DNA from: Streptomyces sp. SAI-135
Lineage (GTDB): Bacteria > Actinomycetota > Actinomycetes > Streptomycetales > Streptomycetaceae
DNA: 64,000 nucleotides
Assembly (NCBI RefSeq): GCF_029893805.1
Contig: NZ_JARXYP010000002.1
Span: 7,130,001-7,194,000, forward strand
Direction of reading: 5' to 3'
Shown here: positions 7,347-16,734 of the stretch, piece after piece
Layout of the letters: every line of letters begins with the position of its first letter
How positions within the stretch are numbered: the first letter of the stretch is position 1
Notes under the pieces: generated by a model
Databases searched by the model: none
What the model saw: the letters and a program-made list of their open reading frames with translations, nothing else
What the model was told of the DNA's origin: nothing
Made by a program: the position numbers and the translations under genes

Positions 7347-7753
7347 GCCCCGACGCTAACCGAAGGCACGTCGGCCGGCCCCGCCTGTCCGGTCCGCGAA
7401 CACCGGGACCGGTATGTGGGCACCCAGGCCCTCGGGGCCCGGTCGTTCAGTGTGTCGCGTGGCGGCCGGCTCGGCGCTGCCCGCCCCGTCCCCTGACCGT
7501 CGGCGCGTCCACCAGGCCGCCCGGCAGGCCCAGCACGAGGACGTACGGCCACCAGTCCAGCCCTCCGGCCACCTCACCCGTGGCGCGGGGCGCCGCGGAA
7601 TCAACCGTCGGCAGAAAGCGCGTTCTCCCGATCGCGTCCGACCCGTTGACCTCCTGGTTCCCCAGCCGTACCTTTCGGCTGTTCGCAATCACAACAGATG
7701 TTCTCAATATCGAACATCGCTCTCAGGACACCCCCACCCGAGAGGCAGTCCGT
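7347..7753. other. Intergenic region before the GH43 operon, with candidate operators
   Basis: About 400 bases without a convincing gene separate the methyltransferase from the GH43 pair. They contain GAAAGCGCGTTC (7614-7625), similar to the LacI-type boxes elsewhere, and a clear inverted repeat at 7697-7718. The AT content rises sharply at 7680-7720, as expected of a promoter. A minus-strand open frame (7447-7707) encodes a short hydrophobic stretch but has no ribosome site or family resemblance I can name. Confidence 0.5.
7697..7718. promoter_or_regulatory. Inverted repeat GATGTTC-N8-GAACATC, probable operator
   Basis: A perfect 7-bp inverted repeat with an 8-bp AT-rich spacer (TCAATATC) lies 36 bases before the GH43 start codon, in the only AT-rich stretch of the region. 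The position overlaps where a promoter or transcription start would be. The cognate regulator is unknown. It does not resemble the AAGCGCTT boxes, so a second regulator may act here. Confidence 0.5.
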
Positions 7754-8830
7754 ATGAGCCGCGCCCCCGACGTCCCCCACCGGCGACTGCTGCTGAAAGG
7801 TGCCCTGGCCGCGGGCGCCCTGGCCGCGACCCCCACCGCCGCCGAAGCCGCCCCGCGCCCGAAGAAGGCCGCACCCTTCGTGAACCCGCTCGTCCGCAAC
7901 CGCGCCGACCCTCACATCCACCGTCACACCGACGGCCACTACTACTTCACCGCCACCGCCCCCGAGTACGACCGCATCGTCCTGCGCCGCTCCCGCACCA
8001 TCAACGGCCTCGCGACCGCGGACGAGTCCGTCGTCTGGACCAAGCATCCGACCGGTGTCATGGGCGCCCACATCTGGGCACCGGAGCTCCATCGCATCGG
8101 CGGCAAGTGGTACATCTACTTCGCCTCCGCGCCCGCCGAGAGCGTGTGGGACATCCGCATCTGGGTCCTGGAGAACGCCAACCCCAACCCCTTCAAGGGC
8201 ACTTGGGTGGAGAGGGGCCAGATCCGGACTGCCTGGGAGACCTTCTCCCTGGACGCCACCACCTTCACCCACCGCGGCACCCGCTACCTCGCCTGGGCCC
8301 AGCACGAGCCCGGCCTGGACAACAACACCGGTCTCTTCCTGTCGAGGATGGCGAATCCCTGGACGCTGACGGGGCCTCAGATCAGGCTCTCCACACCGCA
8401 GTACGACTGGGAGTGCGTCGGCTACAAGGTCAACGAGGGGCCCTCGGTCATCGCCCGCAACGGCCGCCTGTTCATGTCCTACTCGGCCAGCGCCACCGAC
8501 CGGCACTACTGCATGGGCCTGCTCACGGCCGACGCGGACGCCGACCTCATGAACCCGGCGAGCTGGTCCAAGTCACCCACCCCCGTGTTCACCAGCAACG
8601 ACACCACCAGGCAGTACGGCCCCGGCCACAACTGCTTCACCGTCGCCGAGGACGGCCGCAGTGACGTCCTCGTCTACCACGCCCGCCCGTACAAGGAGAT
8701 CGTCGGCGACCCGCTGAACGACCCCAACCGCCACACCCGCGTGCAGAAGCTCGGCTGGCACGCGGACGGCACGCCTGACTTCGGCGTACCGGTGGCGGAC
8801 ACCGCCATGGACACGGAGGTCGCGTCTTGA
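7754..8830 (+). CDS. Secreted GH43-family glycoside hydrolase, arabinofuranosidase-like
   Basis: This 358-residue protein has a twin-arginine signal (HRRLLLKGALAAG...TAAEA), so it is probably exported folded. It is followed by a single five-bladed GH43 propeller. The expected catalytic residues are visible: the base Asp52 in NRADPHIHRHTDG, the pKa-modulating Asp167 in FSLDATTFTH, and the acid Glu228 in VNEGPSVI. HIWAPELHRIGGKWYIYF is a typical blade. The pattern is closest to exo-acting alpha-L-arabinofuranosidases of the GH43_26 type, which act on arabinan or arabinoxylan side chains. No carbohydrate-binding module is attached. The ATG at 7754 has AGGCAG upstream. The stop overlaps the next start as TTGA, so the two enzymes are translationally coupled. 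Substrate is inference. Confidence 0.85.
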   Translation: MSRAPDVPHRRLLLKGALAAGALAATPTAAEAAPRPKKAAPFVNPLVRNRADPHIHRHTDGHYYFTATAPEYDRIVLRRSRTINGLATADESVVWTKHPTGVMGAHIWAPELHRIGGKWYIYFASAPAESVWDIRIWVLENANPNPFKGTWVERGQIRTAWETFSLDATTFTHRGTRYLAWAQHEPGLDNNTGLFLSRMANPWTLTGPQIRLSTPQYDWECVGYKVNEGPSVIARNGRLFMSYSASATDRHYCMGLLTADADADLMNPASWSKSPTPVFTSNDTTRQYGPGHNCFTVAEDGRSDVLVYHARPYKEIVGDPLNDPNRHTRVQKLGWHADGTPDFGVPVADTAMDTEVAS

Positions 8831-10239
8831 GACGTGTGTACGCGGTACTGATCGCCCTCTGCCTGGCCCTGGCCGGCGCCCTGGTGACCGCCGGACCGGC
8901 CCAGGCCGCCCCGCTGACCGTCCCGAACGGCGTCCGGTTCACGGACACTTCGGGAGGCGCCCTGCACGCCCACGGCGGCGGGGTCGTCAAGGTCGGCTCC
9001 TACTACTACTGGTTCGGCGAGGACCGCAACGCCGACAACACCTTCCGGTACGTGGACGCCTACCGCTCCACCGACCTGAAGAACTGGGAGTTCAGGAACC
9101 ACGTCCTGACCCAGTCCTCCGCCTCCGAGCTGTCCAAGGCATACATAGAGCGGCCCAAGGTCGTCTACAACGCGACCACCGGCAAGTTCGTGATGTGGAT
9201 GCACAAGGAGAACGGCACCGACTACAGCGAGGCCCGCGCGGCCGTCGCCGTGTCCGACACCGTCGACGGGAACTACGCCTACCAGGGCAGCTTCCGCCCG
9301 CTCGGCCAGTACATGTCCCGTGACATCACCACGTTCGTCGACACCGACGGCACCGGCTACATGGTCTCGGCCGCCAACGAGAACTACGACCTGCACATCT
9401 ACCGGCTCACCGCCGACTACACCGGCATCGCCGGTCTCGTCGCCAACCCCTGGCCGGGCGGCCACCGCGAGGCCCCGGCCCTGTTCAAGCGGGGCGGCGT
9501 CTACTTCATGCTGACCTCGGGCGCGACCGGCTGGAGCGCCAATCAGCAGCAGTACGCCACCGCGACCTCCCTCGCCGGCCCGTGGACCTCGATGGCGAAC
9601 GTCGGGGACTCCACGACCTACAACTCGCAGACCGCCTACGTCCTTCCGGTGCAGGGCACCTCGGGCACCTCGTACCTCTACATGGGCGACCGCTGGGGCA
9701 ACTCCTTCGGCGGGACCGTCAACGACTCGCGGTACGTCTGGCTGCCGTTGACCTTCCCGAGCTCCACCACAATGTCCATGTCCTGGTACCCCGAGGTCAC
9801 GATCGACGCGGCGGCCGGGACCGTCTCCGGCACCGCTGCCACGTACAACACGCTGGTCGCGCGCAACAGCGGCAAGTGCGCGGACGTGCCCGACCAGTCG
9901 CTGTGGCAGGGCGTCGCGATCAGCCAGTACACCTGCAACGGCGGCGGCAACCAGAAGTGGTGGTTCAAGAACCTCGGCACCGGCTACTACCAGCTCGTCG
10001 GCCGCGGCAGCTCGCTGTGCCTCCAGGAGAACGCCACCGACGTGACCCAGGAGAACTGCTCGTCGAGCGCCACCACCCAGCAGTGGTCGGTCGTCACCTC
10101 GGGCTCCTACGTCAACATCAAGGCCCGCACCAGCGGTGAGTGCCTCGACGTGAACGGCGCGTCCACCGCCAACTCCGCCCCGATCATCACGTACACGTGC
10201 AACGGAGCGACCAACCAGCAGTGGACGCGCGGTACCTGA
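8827..10239 (+). CDS. Secreted GH43 exo-beta-1,3-galactanase-like enzyme with CBM13
   Basis: This 470-residue secreted protein starts at a TTG overlapping the previous stop. The Sec signal ends GPAQAAP. Residues about 33-330 resemble GH43 subfamily 24 propellers: LHAHGGGVVKVGSYYYWFGE, YRSTDLKNWEFRNHVL, YIERPKVVYNATTGKFVMWMH, MSRDITTFVDTDGTGYMVSA, EAPALFKRGGVYFMLTSGATGW. This subfamily contains exo-beta-1,3-galactanases that clip the main chain of type II arabinogalactan and bypass side chains. Residues about 340-470 are a ricin-type CBM13 with repeats ending in QKWW, TQQWS and NQQWT. The same GH43_24+CBM13 architecture is known from characterised Streptomyces exo-beta-1,3-galactanases. It pairs functionally with the GH30 enzyme at 28794. 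Its 3' end is only 2 bp from the convergent lyase gene. Confidence 0.85.
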   Translation: MRRVYAVLIALCLALAGALVTAGPAQAAPLTVPNGVRFTDTSGGALHAHGGGVVKVGSYYYWFGEDRNADNTFRYVDAYRSTDLKNWEFRNHVLTQSSASELSKAYIERPKVVYNATTGKFVMWMHKENGTDYSEARAAVAVSDTVDGNYAYQGSFRPLGQYMSRDITTFVDTDGTGYMVSAANENYDLHIYRLTADYTGIAGLVANPWPGGHREAPALFKRGGVYFMLTSGATGWSANQQQYATATSLAGPWTSMANVGDSTTYNSQTAYVLPVQGTSGTSYLYMGDRWGNSFGGTVNDSRYVWLPLTFPSSTTMSMSWYPEVTIDAAAGTVSGTAATYNTLVARNSGKCADVPDQSLWQGVAISQYTCNGGGNQKWWFKNLGTGYYQLVGRGSSLCLQENATDVTQENCSSSATTQQWSVVTSGSYVNIKARTSGECLDVNGASTANSAPIITYTCNGATNQQWTRGT

Positions 10240-10241
10240 CG

Positions 10242-11924
10242 TCAGGTCAGCAGGTCGATCGCGTCGATCGACGTGCCCGCGCTGAGATAGGCCGTCGACC
10301 CCGAACCGCTCACGATGTTGATCTTCAGCGTGTTGTACTGGCCGGTGTCCGTGCGCCAGGCACTGGCCGGAACGCTGTAGGTGAACGTGTGGTTGTTGCC
10401 CCGGTAGGACCCGTTCGTCAGGGACCGGGTGCTCGGCTGTGTGGGCGGGGAGGGGATCGCCGACGTCCAGGTGTCGTTGACGACGACCTGCGGCCGCCCG
10501 TTGGCGTAGGCCGTCGTCACCCCGATCCGCAGGGTGTGCGCGGCGGCGGCCTGAGCGGCGGTCAGCTTGAAGTACACCAGCAGACCGCTGTTGACGTCCT
10601 TCCAGAGGTAGCAGGGGAAGGCGGAGGTCTCGGTACCGCTGCCGACGACGACATTGCCGGTCCAGGAGGCGGCCCGGACGTCCGAGGGATGGGCGTACGT
10701 CATCAGGTCGGCGTTCTTGAAGCCGCTCGGGGTGCCCGTCCAGTCGTTGATCCGCCAGATAGCGCCCGCGTTGCTCGGGTCGTTGGTGGACGGGATCGCG
10801 AGGGAGTTCAGGGTGGTCGTCCCGCCGGCGGTCACCGTCACGGAGGTGGTGTACACGGCGAGTTCGCTCTTGTAGACGGTCAGGGTGTACGTCCCCGGCA
10901 GGACCCCGCCGATGGAGAAGTAACCGTCCGAGGAGCGGGCCGGACCCCAGTACTGGGCGGCCGGGTTGGCGAGTCCGACGGTGTACGGGTACGCCGTGTT
11001 CCGGCCCGTGATGCCCACGCCCGCGACGCGGCCCCGGCCGCCCGGGGCGACGTAGCCGGAGATGCCGAGCGAGTCCGCCCAGGAGGTGGTGAGGGTGCCC
11101 GGGAACAGCGAGGAGGAGGGCGCGCCGCCGTCCGTGAGGGCGATGACGTACGGGCCCTGGAGGCCGAAGCGCTCGTCCTCGGTCTGGTTCTGGGCGTAGT
11201 GCAGGATCTCGTAGAGGCCGCCGCCGTCCGCGCTCTGGTGGCGCAGCAGGGAGCGGTAGAAGGGACCGCCGGACGCCTTCTCGTGGTTGGAGCGGACGAT
11301 CCACAGGCCGACGCCGTTCGCGCTCCAGCCGACGTAGTCGTAGTCCATGACCCGCAGCTTCGAGTAGTGCTTCGAGCGGGTCTGGCCGTCGGACTTGGCG
11401 AAGACGTCCGAGGCCTCGATGGTGGTCGGCGCGTACGTGTACGAATCGGGCTGGTCGTTGAGGAACAGGCCCGCCCTGACGCGCAGGATGAAGCGGGTCG
11501 AGGCGACCGAGGTGTCGGCCCGGTTGGTCCACAGGTAGACGTTGTTCTCGCCGCTGCGGGCCGCGTAGTAGTGCCGGAGCGTGCCGTACGCGACCGAGAC
11601 CAGGATCGTGGACCCGGACTGCTTGACGGTGACGGTGGAGGTGCCGAGACCGGACTCGATGTGCGAGTTCTTGCCGCCGTAGCCCTGGTACTCCGTGCCC
11701 TTGTAGACGAGCGAGGTCAGGTCGCCGTTGGTCTTGCTGACCTTGAAGACGAGGTTCGCGCCGGTGTCGACGACGTAGTTCGAGCCGTCGTCGGACCAGC
11801 CGAAACCCGCGGCGGACGCGGACGGGGCGAGCGGCCCGGCGAGCGCGGCCGTCCCTGCGGCGGCCGCGGTGCCGAGGACGAGGGTTCGGCGTCCGACCGG
11901 TCTGTTCACGGTGGATCCGGACAT
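10242..11924 (-). CDS. Secreted rhamnogalacturonan lyase (PL4 family)
   Basis: This 560-residue enzyme cleaves the rhamnogalacturonan I backbone by beta-elimination. A Tat signal (NRPVGRRTLVLGTAAA...PSASA) precedes an N-terminal catalytic beta-sandwich domain (NLVFKVSKTNGDLTSLVYKG, SHIESGLG, YVGWSANGVGLWIVRSNHE). A central fibronectin-like RhgB domain follows (GRVAGVGITGRN, GYFSIGGVLPGTYTLTVYK), then a C-terminal carbohydrate-binding-like domain (IWRINDWTGTPSGFKNAD, NNHTFTYSVPASAW, GTSIDAIDLLT). This three-domain order is the PL4 rhamnogalacturonan endolyase arrangement. I chose the ATG at 11924 because it has a GGAGG site and leads directly into the signal peptide; upstream in-frame codons look non-coding. 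It is divergent from the acetylesterase gene, with operators between, and converges on the galactanase gene. Confidence 0.9.
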   Translation of the reverse strand: MSGSTVNRPVGRRTLVLGTAAAAGTAALAGPLAPSASAAGFGWSDDGSNYVVDTGANLVFKVSKTNGDLTSLVYKGTEYQGYGGKNSHIESGLGTSTVTVKQSGSTILVSVAYGTLRHYYAARSGENNVYLWTNRADTSVASTRFILRVRAGLFLNDQPDSYTYAPTTIEASDVFAKSDGQTRSKHYSKLRVMDYDYVGWSANGVGLWIVRSNHEKASGGPFYRSLLRHQSADGGGLYEILHYAQNQTEDERFGLQGPYVIALTDGGAPSSSLFPGTLTTSWADSLGISGYVAPGGRGRVAGVGITGRNTAYPYTVGLANPAAQYWGPARSSDGYFSIGGVLPGTYTLTVYKSELAVYTTSVTVTAGGTTTLNSLAIPSTNDPSNAGAIWRINDWTGTPSGFKNADLMTYAHPSDVRAASWTGNVVVGSGTETSAFPCYLWKDVNSGLLVYFKLTAAQAAAAHTLRIGVTTAYANGRPQVVVNDTWTSAIPSPPTQPSTRSLTNGSYRGNNHTFTYSVPASAWRTDTGQYNTLKINIVSGSGSTAYLSAGTSIDAIDLLT

Positions 11925-11995
11925 GTGGGGGTGCCTCCTCCGGGAGGTGTGGGGGTGGTGCGGGTGCTTTGGAGAGTGACAGTTGAATCGATTTT

Positions 11996-12011
11996 GCGAA
12001 AGGGCTTTCGC
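11996..12011. promoter_or_regulatory. Perfect 16-bp palindrome between PL4 and CE12 genes
   Basis: GCGAAAG-GG-CTTTCGC is a perfect inverted repeat apart from the two central bases. It lies about 70 bases upstream of the lyase start and 108 bases upstream of the acetylesterase start. Its GAAAG...CTTTC core resembles LacI-family sites. It is a likely operator for one or both divergent genes. Confidence 0.45.
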
Positions 12012-12053
12012 TGGCTGGAGGTTGGCAATCTTGTGAAATCGACCCAAGGTCTA

Positions 12054-12065: not shown

Positions 12066-12118
12066 AGATGGCGGTACGGTCCGGCGCCAGGTGTTGCCCC
12101 CTGACGGAGGAACCACGA

Positions 12119-13159
12119 ATGAGACGTTTCAACCTCGCCGTGCTGGCGGCGGTGGCGCTGGCCGCGGGCCTGACGGCCGTACCGGCGCAGGCGCACACCG
12201 GACGTCCGCCGGGCCTGGAGAACTGCACCGCGGCCGGCTGCCACTTCGACGTCCCGCCCGGCACGTACGACGTGCGGGTCCTGCTCGGCGGCGACGCCGG
12301 GTCGAGCACCGCGATCACCGGCGAGACCCGGCGTTCCCTGCTGCCGGAGACCTCGGTCGCGGCCGGTGACCGGGTCTCGCGCAGCTTCACCGTGAACGTC
12401 CGCACCCCTGAGGGCGAGCCGACCGGCCCCGACGGCACACCCGGCCTGGACCTCGCGCTGAGCGGCTCGGCCCCCGCGCTCGCCGGTATCTCGGTCACCC
12501 CGGCCCGGCACGCCCGCCAGATCTTCCTCGTCGGCGACTCCACCGTCTGCGACCAGCCCGGTGACCCCTACTCCGGCTGGGGTCAGCAGCTGCCCCAGTA
12601 CCTGCGCAAGGGCCTGTCCGTGGCCAACTACGCCGACTCCGGCGAGAGCACGGTGAGTTACCTGTCCGAGCCGCGTCTGTGGGCCACGGTCCAGCCGCTG
12701 ATCCGCCCCGGCGACCTCGTCCTCGTCCAGCTCGCCCACAACGACAAGACGACCGACGAGGCGACCTACCGGGCGAACCTGGAGACTCTGGTCGCGGGTG
12801 TCAGGGAGAAAGGCGGGAACCCTGTCCTCGTGACGCCCGTCGTGCGACGCTGGTTCAACTCGGACGGCACGCTGAACAACGGGACGGCCCTGCTGGTCAA
12901 CGGCCTCGGGGTGGACCATCCCGCGGTGATCCGCTCGGTCGCCGCGGCCGAGGACGTGCCGCTGATCGACCTGACGGCGAGGACGAAGTCGCTCGTGGAG
13001 TCCCTGGGCGTGGAGGGCTCCAAGGCGATCTACCTCTACAACGAGAAAAGGGACAACACCCACACCTCCGTGCACGGAGCCACCGTGTACGCGGGCCTGG
13101 TCCGCGACGAACTCGTCGCACAGGGGCTGGTGCCCGCGGGCCTGGTGCGGGTGGGATAG
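12119..13159 (+). CDS. Secreted rhamnogalacturonan acetylesterase (CE12, SGNH hydrolase)
   Basis: This 346-residue esterase removes acetyl groups from rhamnogalacturonan so that lyases can act. A Sec signal ends PAQAH. An N-terminal beta domain of about 100 residues (CHFDVPPGTYDVRVLLGG, SRSFTVNVRTPEGE) precedes the SGNH domain. Block I is FLVGDSTVCDQPGDPYSGWG with nucleophile Ser141, block II-like NYADSGEST, block III VLVQLAHNDK, and block V DNTHTSVHG with Asp312 and His315. This two-part layout is that of CE12 enzymes of the YxiM/RhgT type. The ATG at 12119 has GACGGAGG upstream. It is divergent from the PL4 lyase, whose substrate it would prepare, and a hairpin terminator follows. Confidence 0.9.
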   Translation: MRRFNLAVLAAVALAAGLTAVPAQAHTGRPPGLENCTAAGCHFDVPPGTYDVRVLLGGDAGSSTAITGETRRSLLPETSVAAGDRVSRSFTVNVRTPEGEPTGPDGTPGLDLALSGSAPALAGISVTPARHARQIFLVGDSTVCDQPGDPYSGWGQQLPQYLRKGLSVANYADSGESTVSYLSEPRLWATVQPLIRPGDLVLVQLAHNDKTTDEATYRANLETLVAGVREKGGNPVLVTPVVRRWFNSDGTLNNGTALLVNGLGVDHPAVIRSVAAAEDVPLIDLTARTKSLVESLGVEGSKAIYLYNEKRDNTHTSVHGATVYAGLVRDELVAQGLVPAGLVRVG

Positions 13160-13285: not shown

Positions 13286-15352
13286 ATGCAGTTGCCCCCC
13301 GAGGACCGCACCCTCAGTCCGCACACCGGCTGCACGCGCGCCCACTGGGAGGCCGCCGCCGACGCCCTGCTCGCCGCCGTCGAGCCGTACGCCACCGAGG
13401 ACCGCGCCCTCTACCACCTCCCCGGCGACCGCCAGAGCTGGTCGGGCCGCCTCTCCGACGGCCTTGAGGGCTACGCCCGTACGCTCCTGCTGGCGGCCTT
13501 CCGCCAGGACGCGACCGCGCTGGAGCGGTACGCCGACGGCCTCGCCGCCGGAGTCTCGGGGGTCTGGCCCCGTATCGAGGACCGCGGCCAACCACTGGTG
13601 GAGGCGGCGTCCATCGCGTTCGCGCTGCGGATCACCAGGCCACTGCTCTGGGACCGGCTGGACGAGGCCGTACGGCAGCGCGCCGCGGCCTGGCTCACCG
13701 ACGCGCTCACCGCCGAGGCATGGCCCTGCAACTGGGAGCTCTTCCCCGTCACGGTGGCCGGCTTCCTGTCCTCGCTCGGCCACGAGCCGGAGGCCTCCCG
13801 CAAGGCGATCGACCGCGGTCTGGAGCGCATCGAACAGTGGTACGTCGGCGAGGGCTGGTACACCGACGGCGACGGCCGCAAGTTCGACTACTACAACGGC
13901 TGGGCCATGCACCTCTACCCGGTGCTGCACGCCTGGCTGGCCGAGGACGACCGGCTGCTGGACCTGTACGGCGGCCGCCTCTCCCGCCATCTCGCCGACT
14001 ACGCCCGCCTGTTCGGGGCCGACGGCGCCCCGATGCACCAGGGCCGCTCGCTCACCTACCGCTTCGCGACGACGGCCCCCCTGTGGCTGGGCGCGCTCAC
14101 CGGCCACACCCCGCTCTCCTCGGGCGAGACCCGGCGGCTGGCCTCCGGCGCCCTCAAGTACTTCCTGGACCGCGGCGCGGTGGACTCCCGCGGCCTGCTC
14201 ACCCTCGGCTGGCACGGCCCCGACCCGGCGGTCCTCCAGGGCTATTCGGGCCCGGCCTCGCCGTACTGGGCGAGCAAGGGCTTCCTCGGCCTGCTCCTCC
14301 CGGCGGACCACGAGGTGTGGACGGCGGTGGAGGAACCGGGCCCCGCCGAACGCTCCGACGCGCTCACCTCGATCACCGCCCCCAACTGGCTTCTCCAGTC
14401 CACCCGTTCCGACGGCCTGGTCCGCCTCCACAACCACGGCAGCGAGGACGTCCGCTACGACCCGTACTACACCCGCCTCGCCTACTCCACGGCGACCGAG
14501 CCCTCCCCGTCGTACGACAACAGCCTCTTCGTGAACGGCGATCCGAGCCGGACGGAGATCGAGCCGCTGGGGGTGGGGGAGGGGTGGGCGGCCTCCCGGC
14601 ACACGGCGGCCGGGGGTGCGCGGGTCCGCAGTGTCGTGCTGGCGCGGGGAGCCGTGGAGGTGCGTGCCTTCCTCGTGGCCGGGGCCGAGCCCGGGACGCC
14701 GGTGCGGGTGACGGGGTGGGCGGCGCGGGACGACGTCCGGTCCGAACTGCTGCCCGCCGTGGGCCTCGACGACGAGCTGAGCGGGGTGACGGGCGAGGGG
14801 GACACGTTGTTCGTCGCGCTGGCCCGCCTCACCGCGGACGCCGATGCCGAGCCGCTGGGGGAGACGGTGACCGCAAGGGCCACAGGGGCACGGGAGTTGA
14901 CGGTGACATGGAAGGGAGGCTCCGGGACGCGGGTCCGGTGGGAGGGCTCCGGTGTGGACGTCGTGCCCGGTCCGCGACCGCTCACCCCCGAGGAGCGGCT
15001 CGCCGACGCGAAGAAGCTGCTGGGCCTCCCGCGCATCGTCGCGATCTGCGGCTCCACCCGCTTCATGACCGAGATGGCCGAGGCCGATCTGCGGGAGACC
15101 GAAGCCGGAAGGATCGTCGTCAAGCCGGGGTGCGACATGAAGTCGCCGCACGAGCTCTGGGGCGACCCCGCCGACGCCGAGGCGCTGAAGGCTCGGCTCG
15201 ACGACCTGCACCGGGCGAAGATCCGGCTCGCCGACGAGGTGCTCGTGGTCGGCGACCACATCGGAGACAGCACCCGGGCCGAGATCGCCTACGCCCGGTC
15301 GCTGGACAAGCCCGTGCGGTTCACCCACCCGGAGGCCGACCCCGGCGCCTGA
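13286..15352 (+). CDS. DUF2264 protein fused to a C-terminal nucleoside-deoxyribosyltransferase-like domain
   Basis: This 688-residue protein has two parts. Residues about 1-565 are a DUF2264 domain: an alpha/alpha-toroid (SWSGRLSDGLEGYARTLLLA, WPCNWELFPVTVAGFL, FDYYNGWAMHLYPVLHAWL, LTYRFATTAPLWLGALTG, LGWHGPDPAVLQGYSGPASP) followed by a beta domain. DUF2264 proteins occur in polysaccharide loci, and I believe some are classed as GH154 beta-glucuronidases. Residues about 582-688 (PRIVAICGSTRFMTEMAEA, RIVVKPGCDMKSP, KIRLADEVLVVGDHIGDSTR, EIAYARSLDKPVRF) resemble a small Rossmann-like nucleoside 2-deoxyribosyltransferase-type protein that I would expect as a separate gene. They are joined in frame by LTPEERLADAKKLLGL. 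The ATG has GAGGAAGAG upstream and no signal peptide. The 3' end is 10 bp from the convergent hydrolase gene. Confidence 0.8.
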   Translation: MQLPPEDRTLSPHTGCTRAHWEAAADALLAAVEPYATEDRALYHLPGDRQSWSGRLSDGLEGYARTLLLAAFRQDATALERYADGLAAGVSGVWPRIEDRGQPLVEAASIAFALRITRPLLWDRLDEAVRQRAAAWLTDALTAEAWPCNWELFPVTVAGFLSSLGHEPEASRKAIDRGLERIEQWYVGEGWYTDGDGRKFDYYNGWAMHLYPVLHAWLAEDDRLLDLYGGRLSRHLADYARLFGADGAPMHQGRSLTYRFATTAPLWLGALTGHTPLSSGETRRLASGALKYFLDRGAVDSRGLLTLGWHGPDPAVLQGYSGPASPYWASKGFLGLLLPADHEVWTAVEEPGPAERSDALTSITAPNWLLQSTRSDGLVRLHNHGSEDVRYDPYYTRLAYSTATEPSPSYDNSLFVNGDPSRTEIEPLGVGEGWAASRHTAAGGARVRSVVLARGAVEVRAFLVAGAEPGTPVRVTGWAARDDVRSELLPAVGLDDELSGVTGEGDTLFVALARLTADADAEPLGETVTARATGARELTVTWKGGSGTRVRWEGSGVDVVPGPRPLTPEERLADAKKLLGLPRIVAICGSTRFMTEMAEADLRETEAGRIVVKPGCDMKSPHELWGDPADAEALKARLDDLHRAKIRLADEVLVVGDHIGDSTRAEIAYARSLDKPVRFTHPEADPGA

Positions 15353-15362
15353 CACCCACCTG

Positions 15363-16154
15363 TCATGACCGCGGGCCGGCCCCGAGCAGCGTGCCCGTGA
15401 GCCGTTCGGCGAAATCCTCCGGGTGCTGGAGGACGCCGAGGTGGCCGCCGGGGAACTCGGCGAAGTCGGCCTGAAGGTGCTTCGCCAGGTACTCGGCGGT
15501 GCGGTACAGGAGTTGGCCGCGGGAGTCGGCGCCCGCGGCGACGGTGAGGGGGGCGGGGGAAGGGCCCGCCTCGGGGACGTACGACGTGAAGGGTTCGATG
15601 ACGTGGGCGAGGGCCAGTGCCATGGGGGTCGTCAACTCCTCCTCCCGGGACAGGGGTTGGCCGGCCGGGAGCTCTCCCGCGTCCCGCTCCTCCAGTACGG
15701 CGGTCATCAGGGCGCCCGCCGCCGCGAGCCCCCTGGCCCGGTAGACGGCACAGACATCGCGGAACGCCGCCCGCTGCCGTGCCCCGTCCGGCAACACCCC
15801 CACGCACGGCGGCTCGTGCGCGACCACGTGCCGCAGCCGCTCCGCGTGCCTGACCGCCAGATCGAGCGCGGCCACGGCCCCGGCACTGGTGCCGAGGACA
15901 TACGCCGTGCCGCCCTCCGCAAGCGTCTCGTCGAGCACCCGCCGCGCCCCGTGGCTCCAGTCCTGGACCCGCTGGTCGGCGACGGGTTCACCGAGCCGGC
16001 CGTGGGCGAGGCCGAGAGGGTCGTAGGTGACGACGGTGAAGTGCCCGCAGAGCGCCTGCGTCAGCGGGCCGAGGCCCATCGGGTGCCCCGCGCCGCCGGG
16101 AAGCAGCAGCAGTACGGGGCCGTGGCCGGTGATGTCGTAGCACGGGTCAGTCAT
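15363..16154 (-). CDS. Alpha/beta-fold hydrolase
   Basis: This 263-residue cytoplasmic hydrolase has PVLLLLPGGAGHPMGLGPL (oxyanion-hole region), TVVTYDPLGLAHG, the nucleophile elbow VLGTSAGAVAAL, and a C-terminal His in FPGGHLGVL. A catalytic acid is likely near TVAAGADSRGQ. It overlaps the upstream TetR gene by 8 bases (ATGACTGA), so the two are translationally coupled and the hydrolase is almost certainly a target of that regulator. The substrate cannot be read from sequence; members act on esters, lactones or similar small molecules. Confidence 0.85.
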   Translation of the reverse strand: MTDPCYDITGHGPVLLLLPGGAGHPMGLGPLTQALCGHFTVVTYDPLGLAHGRLGEPVADQRVQDWSHGARRVLDETLAEGGTAYVLGTSAGAVAALDLAVRHAERLRHVVAHEPPCVGVLPDGARQRAAFRDVCAVYRARGLAAAGALMTAVLEERDAGELPAGQPLSREEELTTPMALALAHVIEPFTSYVPEAGPSPAPLTVAAGADSRGQLLYRTAEYLAKHLQADFAEFPGGHLGVLQHPEDFAERLTGTLLGAGPRS

Positions 16155-16734
16155 CGGTGTTCTCCTCCTGGGGCCAGTTCTCGAGTGCCACGTGCAGGGC
16201 GTCGACCGCCCTGTCCCATGACTCCTGTACGTCGCGGGGTGCGCCGAAGCCGCCCGCCGACTCCAGGGCGCAGAAACCGTGGAAGGTGGCGCGCAACAGG
16301 CGTACCGCGTCGGTGAGATCGGGTTCGGCGAGACCGTAGGCGCGCAGCATGCCGTAGGTGATCTCGGCAGTGCGCCGGAGCGCGGGGGTGCCGGCGATCA
16401 GCGTCTGGTCGATCCGGATCTGGGTCGCGGCGTACCGGCCCGGCCGTTCCAGCGCGTACGCGCGGTAGGCCCCGGCGAAGGCGGCCAGCGCGTCCTTCCC
16501 GGACCGGCCCGCCACCTCGACGGCGATCCGGTCGATCAGCTCGCCGCCGGCGAGCAGGGCCACCCGGGTGCGCAGGTCCTGAAGGTTCCTGACGTGCGCG
16601 TACAGGCTCGCGTCCTTCACGCCGAAGCGTTTGGCCAGGGCGGCCAGGGTGACGTTCTCGAAGCCGATCTCGTCGGCGAGGTCGGCCGCCGCCTCGGTGA
16701 GGCGGTCGGTGCTCAGTCCGGCTCGGGGGACCAT
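16147..16734 (-). CDS. TetR-family transcriptional regulator
   Basis: This 195-residue regulator has an N-terminal TetR HTH (LTEAAADLADEIGFENVTLA, ALAKRFGVKDASLYAHVRN, residues about 10-50) and a C-terminal helical ligand domain of the WHG/TetR_C_33 type (AYRAYALERPGRYAATQIRI, LRATFHGFCALESAGGFG). It is cotranscribed with the alpha/beta hydrolase (8-base overlap). A palindrome, TTACCTAGG...CCTAGGCAA, lies about 11 bases upstream of the start and is a probable autoregulatory operator. The inducer is unknown and is probably the hydrolase substrate. Confidence 0.88.
   Translation of the reverse strand: MVPRAGLSTDRLTEAAADLADEIGFENVTLAALAKRFGVKDASLYAHVRNLQDLRTRVALLAGGELIDRIAVEVAGRSGKDALAAFAGAYRAYALERPGRYAATQIRIDQTLIAGTPALRRTAEITYGMLRAYGLAEPDLTDAVRLLRATFHGFCALESAGGFGAPRDVQESWDRAVDALHVALENWPQEENTDD

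Follow-up and report, generated by a model that had tools for sequence, protein, structure and literature searches.

The locus considered here raises the question of how one open reading frame of Streptomyces sp. SAI-135 came to contain both a DUF2264 protein and a small domain resembling nucleoside deoxyribosyltransferases (NDT), and whether this union carries any meaning for what the two halves do. The window, by which we mean the whole stretch of DNA that was analysed, is 64,000 nucleotides long, and the coordinates of the relevant features are collected in Table 1. A preliminary description had reported a single open frame joining DUF2264 to a Rossmann-type domain, and this was confirmed, the frame extending over positions 13286-15352 and encoding 688 residues. 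The longest version of the frame begins at GTG 13202. Orthologues such as L002, L004 and L013, however, begin with a methionine that corresponds to ATG 13286.

Table 1. The fused gene, its parts and its neighbours, in positions of the window.
Feature	Position	Strand	Remarks
GH43	7580..8830	+	
GH43 with ricin-type lectin	8827..10239	+	
Rhamnogalacturonan lyase (RhgB_N and PL4 domains)	10242..12047	-	
SGNH/GDSL esterase	12092..13159	+	syntenic upstream neighbour
Fused open frame, 688 aa	13286..15352	+	ATG to TGA, no internal stop
DUF2264/GH154-type half, residues 1-559	13286..14962	+	PF10022; matches to 8oi4, 9o4u and 9nwf; ends of orthologues
GGAGG, candidate internal ribosome-binding site	14941..14945	+	8 nt before in-frame GTG 14954
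Left junction	14958..14972	+	DNA matches to DUF2264 orthologues and to the small gene
Small-gene coding sequence, complete, 129 codons (residues 560-688)	14963..15352	+	GTG to TGA
Right junction	15350..15358	+	homology to close relatives resumes
Alpha/beta hydrolase	15363..16154	-	convergent; syntenic in relatives
TetR-type regulator	16147..16734	-	syntenic in most relatives read

The identity of the first half is given by Pfam, in which PF10022 (DUF2264) spans residues 17-351 of the fusion (E 5.9e-104, 348.3 bits against a cut-off of 25) and is the only match in the whole fused frame; NCBIfam gave no match in the frame up to E 0.1. Among solved structures this half comes closest to 8oi4 and to two entries (9o4u, 9nwf) that bear the name glucuronate dehydratase, a family match to the GH154 uronate dehydratases (BcGDH, PDB 9o4u/9nwf; BT_3677) with E values of 1e-25 to 4e-30 over three solved chains. 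The accessible text of work on GH154 (PMC12269599) reports dehydratase activity for two members, yielding Delta4,5-unsaturated uronates for GH88/GH105, proposes this activity for the whole family, and describes ten active-site residues of a GH154 enzyme, mutation of which left no activity that could be detected on a poor substrate. Of the eight BcGDH active-site residues that fall inside the alignment, seven are identical in the DUF2264 half (N177, W178, F181, Y229, R285, Y289 and Y354, corresponding to N149, W150, F153, Y203, R254, Y258 and Y320 of the fusion), and the sole differing site is N176, which is Cys148 in the fusion. The BcGDH residues E74 and R78 lie outside the alignment, and here the E-x3-R spacing alone was matched by eye (E61/R65). 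Beyond what the GH154 dehydratases have, the fusion carries two extra parts, a C-terminal region that ends at residue 559 and, after it, the small domain. The ratio dN/dS for DUF2264 is 0.20-0.24 between the window and five relatives and 0.15-0.29 among those relatives. Open-licence papers using the name 'DUF2264' were not found.

The surroundings are in agreement with this assignment. The preliminary description had placed a toroid-type DUF2264 enzyme in a polysaccharide locus, and this view is supported. GH43, rhamnogalacturonan lyase, SGNH esterase and DUF2264 were all four matched in nine of 12 relatives, with the lyase of one of these (L157) matched only as fragments; the stretches from the remaining three were without one or more of the genes, in two cases owing to a contig end. 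As the locus also encodes a rhamnogalacturonan lyase, the role of a uronate dehydratase of a rhamnogalacturonan/pectin locus fits the DUF2264 half, and it is this function, with a substrate to match, that we would predict for it. Inspection by eye revealed no signal peptide in either half, and both look cytoplasmic.

The second half is a domain of 129 residues that contains both ICGSTRFM and LADEVLVVGDHIGDS and that elsewhere is a free-standing gene, as expected from the earlier view of it as an intact NDT-like domain normally forming its own small protein. A domain search of both halves, which that view had invited, identified the first by PF10022 and returned no Pfam or NCBIfam model above cut-off for the second. 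The C-terminal 129 residues match PHROG 355, nucleoside 2-deoxyribosyltransferase, weakly (E 0.0017), and PF05014 was matched in seven of 25 members of the small-domain family, with a best E of 0.013, below cut-off. Assignment to a known family by sequence was rejected, none passing a cut-off. A model of the fused domain's own sequence had a mean pLDDT of 92.1. Foldseek with this model returned nothing at E<=0.001; when its candidates were realigned, the deoxyribosyltransferase 7o62 came top (Z 11.2, 98 residues, 2.2 A), followed by DNPH1 (Z 11.0), with MilB at Z 9.3, and TIR proteins (SARM1, ThsB, SPARTA) were nearly as good as the NDT folds, with Z 8.9-9.8. On the modelled structure, the fold is therefore recognised at the level of NDT/TIR and not of NDT alone. 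With the NDT, DNPH1 (Rcl) and MilB N-glycosidases the domain shares a common fold (Z 9-11 over 85-105 aligned residues) at 11-18% identity, and no curated profile passes its cut-off. It also has an invariant glutamate early in a helix (residues 102-113) that follows a strand (residues 92-96). This Glu107, E666 of the fusion, is invariant in an alignment of 25 homologues, and by its position it may be the equivalent of the catalytic glutamate of NDT/MilB, which makes it the putative catalytic residue. The C-terminal half would be a nucleotide or nucleoside N-glycosidase-like domain, carried on the proline-rich linker VPGPRPLTPEERL.

In free-standing homologues the coding sequence usually opens with a GTG aligned to GTG 14963 (V560), and a leader like GGACCACACCACCAGGAGGAACCA precedes it. 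The linker had been taken for the natural N-terminus of the second protein, which is right to within about six residues, the usual start being the one at V560. Among the best matches listed, the small gene was present in 157 of 392 genus genomes, and among the best 80 of 160 related stretches in named genomes, a collection that may lack records near the window, it was found in Streptomyces, Nonomuraea, Kitasatospora and others. Relatives are also encoded on 21 IMG/VR contigs and 97 plasmid records. A phage origin was rejected, with only three weak phage records, and a defence-system label was ruled out, PADLOC giving no match for the small gene up to E 1. Several copies were seen close to contig ends or on plasmids (G025:C1:532, G011:C2:932500, G203 C1 and C2, and plasmid records), perhaps on chromosome arms.

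Upstream of many copies of the small gene, on the opposite strand, lies a transposase, which when intact (L087) scores 175.5 bits against the IS982 model NF033520 (cut-off 130); a shortened version at L105 scores 103.4 bits, below that cut-off. Among 105 distinct stand-alone loci, a number that includes loci cut by contig ends and so may lower the counts, 62 had the right inverted repeat, 42 a stretch of the transposase at least 60 residues long, 37 both and 38 neither. Both terminal inverted repeats were found in 18 copies, 1.1-1.5 kb apart, and in 16 of these the two ends carry equal 4-bp direct repeats, mostly CTAG but in two copies the non-palindromic CTGG and CCAG. Direct repeats outside these four bases were seen in just one 3-bp case of the 18, so the four bases at the ends are themselves likely to be the target repeat. 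When the flanks of 17 copies were compared, none matched another at E<=1e-5. Sibling copies of the insertion sequence (IS) at L259, L281 and L262 have matching terminal inverted repeats about 1 kb apart and no match to the passenger. From the inverted repeats, the direct repeats, the unlike flanks, the transposase and these passenger-less siblings it follows that the small gene often travels as a passenger of an IS982-family element. An element of about 1.5 kb with the NDT/DNPH1-like passenger divergent from the transposase was observed at L087, L147, L126 and 15 other loci, in Streptomyces, Nonomuraea, Kitasatospora and Microtetraspora.

The carrier resembles IS982 in its transposase, its terminal inverted repeats and the length of its passenger-less siblings, about 1 kb being the family mean in the accessible text of PMC7335449. 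It differs from IS982 in that copies of 1.1-1.5 kb hold a divergent passenger gene and have 4-bp CTAG-like ends. The same text gives ends beginning with AC for 57 of 69 IS982 elements, whereas the ends of the carrier are without this usual AC and read CTAGATGATC..., or ATGATC... if the four bases are the target repeat. The word 'passenger' is absent from the main text of that paper, and no IS982 element of this kind was described in the open-licence literature, among the titles and abstract openings of the matches listed; a search of that literature for nucleoside 2-deoxyribosyltransferase, insertion sequence and Streptomyces together found nothing.

Relatives that are without the fusion bear on its origin. 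Among the matches listed, the longest DNA matches to DUF2264 stop at 14958-14970, and those to the small gene start no earlier than 14962, most of them at 14972. A query across the junction gave some DNA match at E<=0.001, often weak, in 339 of 393 genus genomes, and among the matches listed, at the top of which a spanning match would rank, the window's own genome (G000) alone spans the junction. The fusion protein was matched in 46 of 61 genomes (the own genome, 36 others of the genus and 24 of the order or class), and the listed matches outside G000 end by residue 572 or begin at residue 527 or beyond, the exceptions being short pieces inside the DUF2264 part. The genome sets of 61, 392 and 393 overlap. 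The nearest almost-complete DUF2264 matches, in G259 (92% identity), G213 (91%), G164 (90%) and G316 (90%), keep the order SGNH-DUF2264-abhydrolase, with TetR next after the abhydrolase in three of the four and no TetR match in the stretch of G259. The stretches read in these four genomes contain no match to the small gene, and none adjoins DUF2264 in the 18 stretches compared, so that an origin from genes adjacent but separate in relatives was rejected. In more distant relatives (L164, L165, L168, L157 and others) DUF2264 is followed, on the same strand, by a gene of the PEP-mutase family.

In G259, G164, G316 and G213, DUF2264 runs about four codons past the fusion point, and the gap between it and the convergent abhydrolase is about 0.3 to 2.7 kb. 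Just before the abhydrolase, G164, G316 and G266 (the last with a partial locus) encode a protein of about 152 residues, which in G316 has no Pfam match at E<=0.01. In the window, the stop codon of the abhydrolase starts 11 bases past the last base of the fusion stop. In G259 homology resumes at 15379, and in the other four of the five close relatives (G164, G213, G316 and G266) it does so at 15358, six bases past the fusion stop; the homology regained corresponds in G164, G316 and G266 to the last codons of the gene between DUF2264 and the abhydrolase and in G213 to a remnant of that gene. In the window the small coding sequence, kept from start codon to stop codon, thus stands in place of the final codons and the stop of DUF2264 and of the DNA beyond, and the leader and IS ends are missing. 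Because homology resumes right after the stop, the insert coincides, nearly to the base, with the coding sequence of the small gene, and neither a miscall nor plain loss of a stop codon therefore explains the junction. Simple stop-codon loss, which the preliminary description had placed near 14980-15060, was rejected, since the leader and IS flank are gone and the DNA on both sides is syntenic. Of what that description had said would count against a real fusion, homologues encoding two separate genes were indeed found, and sequencing error or a lost stop fails to account for the join.

We consider it probable, on these grounds, that the locus holds a lineage-specific fusion produced by DNA rearrangement, in which a small gene that elsewhere is often an IS passenger was captured with both reading frames kept. 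An accidental gene fusion had been one of the options put forward, and this option is supported. The small gene would have arrived behind DUF2264 by IS-linked transposition or recombination, and deletions would have trimmed the non-coding flanks; with the last DUF2264 codons and stop gone, together with the small gene's leader, a single frame reads through both. The product would be a protein of about 75 kDa in the cytoplasm, with two domains acting independently, and translation of the small domain would now depend on the DUF2264 message, perhaps aided by an internal start at GTG 14954. Beside the fusion there are neither IS ends nor a transposase, and element DNA matches the coding sequence only. 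A search of G000 with the whole element found the coding sequence of the fusion and two fragments, of 193 bp at 69% and 52 bp at 89%, both on the other contig, and among the best matches listed there was no transposase match in the genome at E<=1e-80. Given that G000 contains only these pieces, the IS route is one that we infer for the window copy, and since 38 of the 105 stand-alone loci are without both right end and transposase, a donor other than an IS is possible. The age of the fusion is bounded only by the split from G259, at a dS of about 0.2 between the two.

The same module was found in frame behind other genes. At 55 of 147 distinct loci at least 60 open codons precede it in frame, and five of these have a coding signature (GC3-GC2 of at least 0.30, a bound set after the values had been seen, with L080 at 0.29, L129 at 0.25 and L062 at 0.22 just below it), namely the window, L231 in G349, L245 in G308 and the IMG/VR contigs L202 and L211; only 20 of the longer open frames around the module were taken for a closer look. 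L231 (G349:C238:39590-41700) is a frame of 562 codons joining a LanC-like protein (PF05147, E 3.9e-29) to the 129-residue module. Parts of it match 85 of 246 genomes at E<=1e-60. Orthologues of the LanC-like protein in G211, G118 and G203 (80-83%; frames of 426-427 codons) end at residue 423 without the module, and only G349 matches at full length, so that, by comparison of the sequences, this frame represents a second case of such a fusion. As in the window, the module is C-terminal, in frame and near the end of the host gene; unlike in the window, its leader and a possible ribosome-binding site are retained, and the host gene is unrelated. In L245 (G308:C4) and L211 the match to the module does not begin until about its residue 23. 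At L245, L211 and L202 a coding-like upstream part with no Pfam match continues into the module.

These frames bear on a possible, if doubtful, alternative, that the gene has two products, with the small protein made mainly from an internal start at GTG 14954 or 14963 and read-through tolerated or minor. The GGAGG that stands before GTG 14954, from which a product of 132 residues and 14.4 kDa was computed, had no counterpart 5-10 nt upstream of any of 21 in-frame start-like codons examined between 13346 and 14900, which hints that the cell may produce the small protein by itself as well. A start signal still precedes the module in G349 (a GAGGAAG run before its GTG, within its own leader) and in L202 (AAGGAG 8 nt before ATG), and read-through may therefore be incidental there. 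Against this stand the single motif in a single gene, the GC-rich genome and the small count.

It is unlikely that the C-terminal domain is a relic, a passive and non-functional tail on a working DUF2264 enzyme. Such a view gains from the restriction of the fusion to one genome among those searched, from the domain being dispensable for the genus, as its distribution implies, and from the length of its end branch in the gene tree, which is 0.077 where the median is 0.014, although the branch is poorly placed. The conservation of the domain speaks the other way. From 126 loci the coding sequences of exactly 387 nt were kept (117 including the fusion, 97 distinct), and at 75 positions at least 97% conserved in 96 distinct stand-alone copies the fused domain deviates at none, where stand-alone copies deviate at a median of one and a maximum of four. 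Its dN/dS is 0.29-0.40 against the eight copies of lowest dS, with a median of 0.28 for sampled stand-alone pairs; a count of private changes was uninformative (four sites), and its random-substitution runs were unable to date the fusion. With the frame open and the fold model of high confidence, this conservation points to an intact domain, but is suggestive only, because part of the divergence may predate the fusion and a very recent fusion would look as intact as a functional one.

Equally improbable is a reading in which the module, transposon-borne and nucleotide-N-glycosidase-like in Streptomyces, is repeatedly captured as a C-terminal domain by unrelated hosts and is still made, as a tail and perhaps free, because the carrier benefits. 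The hosts named in it are DUF2264/GH154, the LanC-like protein of G349 and, in the others, unnamed proteins.

A functional coupling, in which the fusion ties the breakdown of glycans to a cofactor or signal derived from a nucleotide, is very improbable. The preliminary description had raised it, and the intact halves, both cytoplasmic to the eye, would allow it, but they are unlinked in other genomes and the fusion is confined to one, and the presence of the module behind an unrelated LanC-like protein speaks for promiscuous landing and not for a pathway. An artefact of assembly or sequencing is hardly credible: the junction occurs in no other genome searched, but a base miscall would have left the leader in place, the DNA on either side is syntenic with that of relatives, the genome is assembled as two contigs, and codon-position-3 GC is the same in both halves (0.945 and 0.946).

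Taken as a probable capture of a mobile gene, the locus offers a clean example of a passenger gene becoming a protein domain of a chromosomal enzyme, in which one can observe the two partners, the unfused locus of close relatives, the mobile element that carries the gene and another fusion that is independent of this one. Two features come as a surprise, namely an IS982 element that bears a passenger and the fact that this passenger has been fused a second time. The finding cautions against taking such fusions as pathway links, and it brings to attention an IS982-type element with an enzyme-like passenger in Streptomyces and its relatives.
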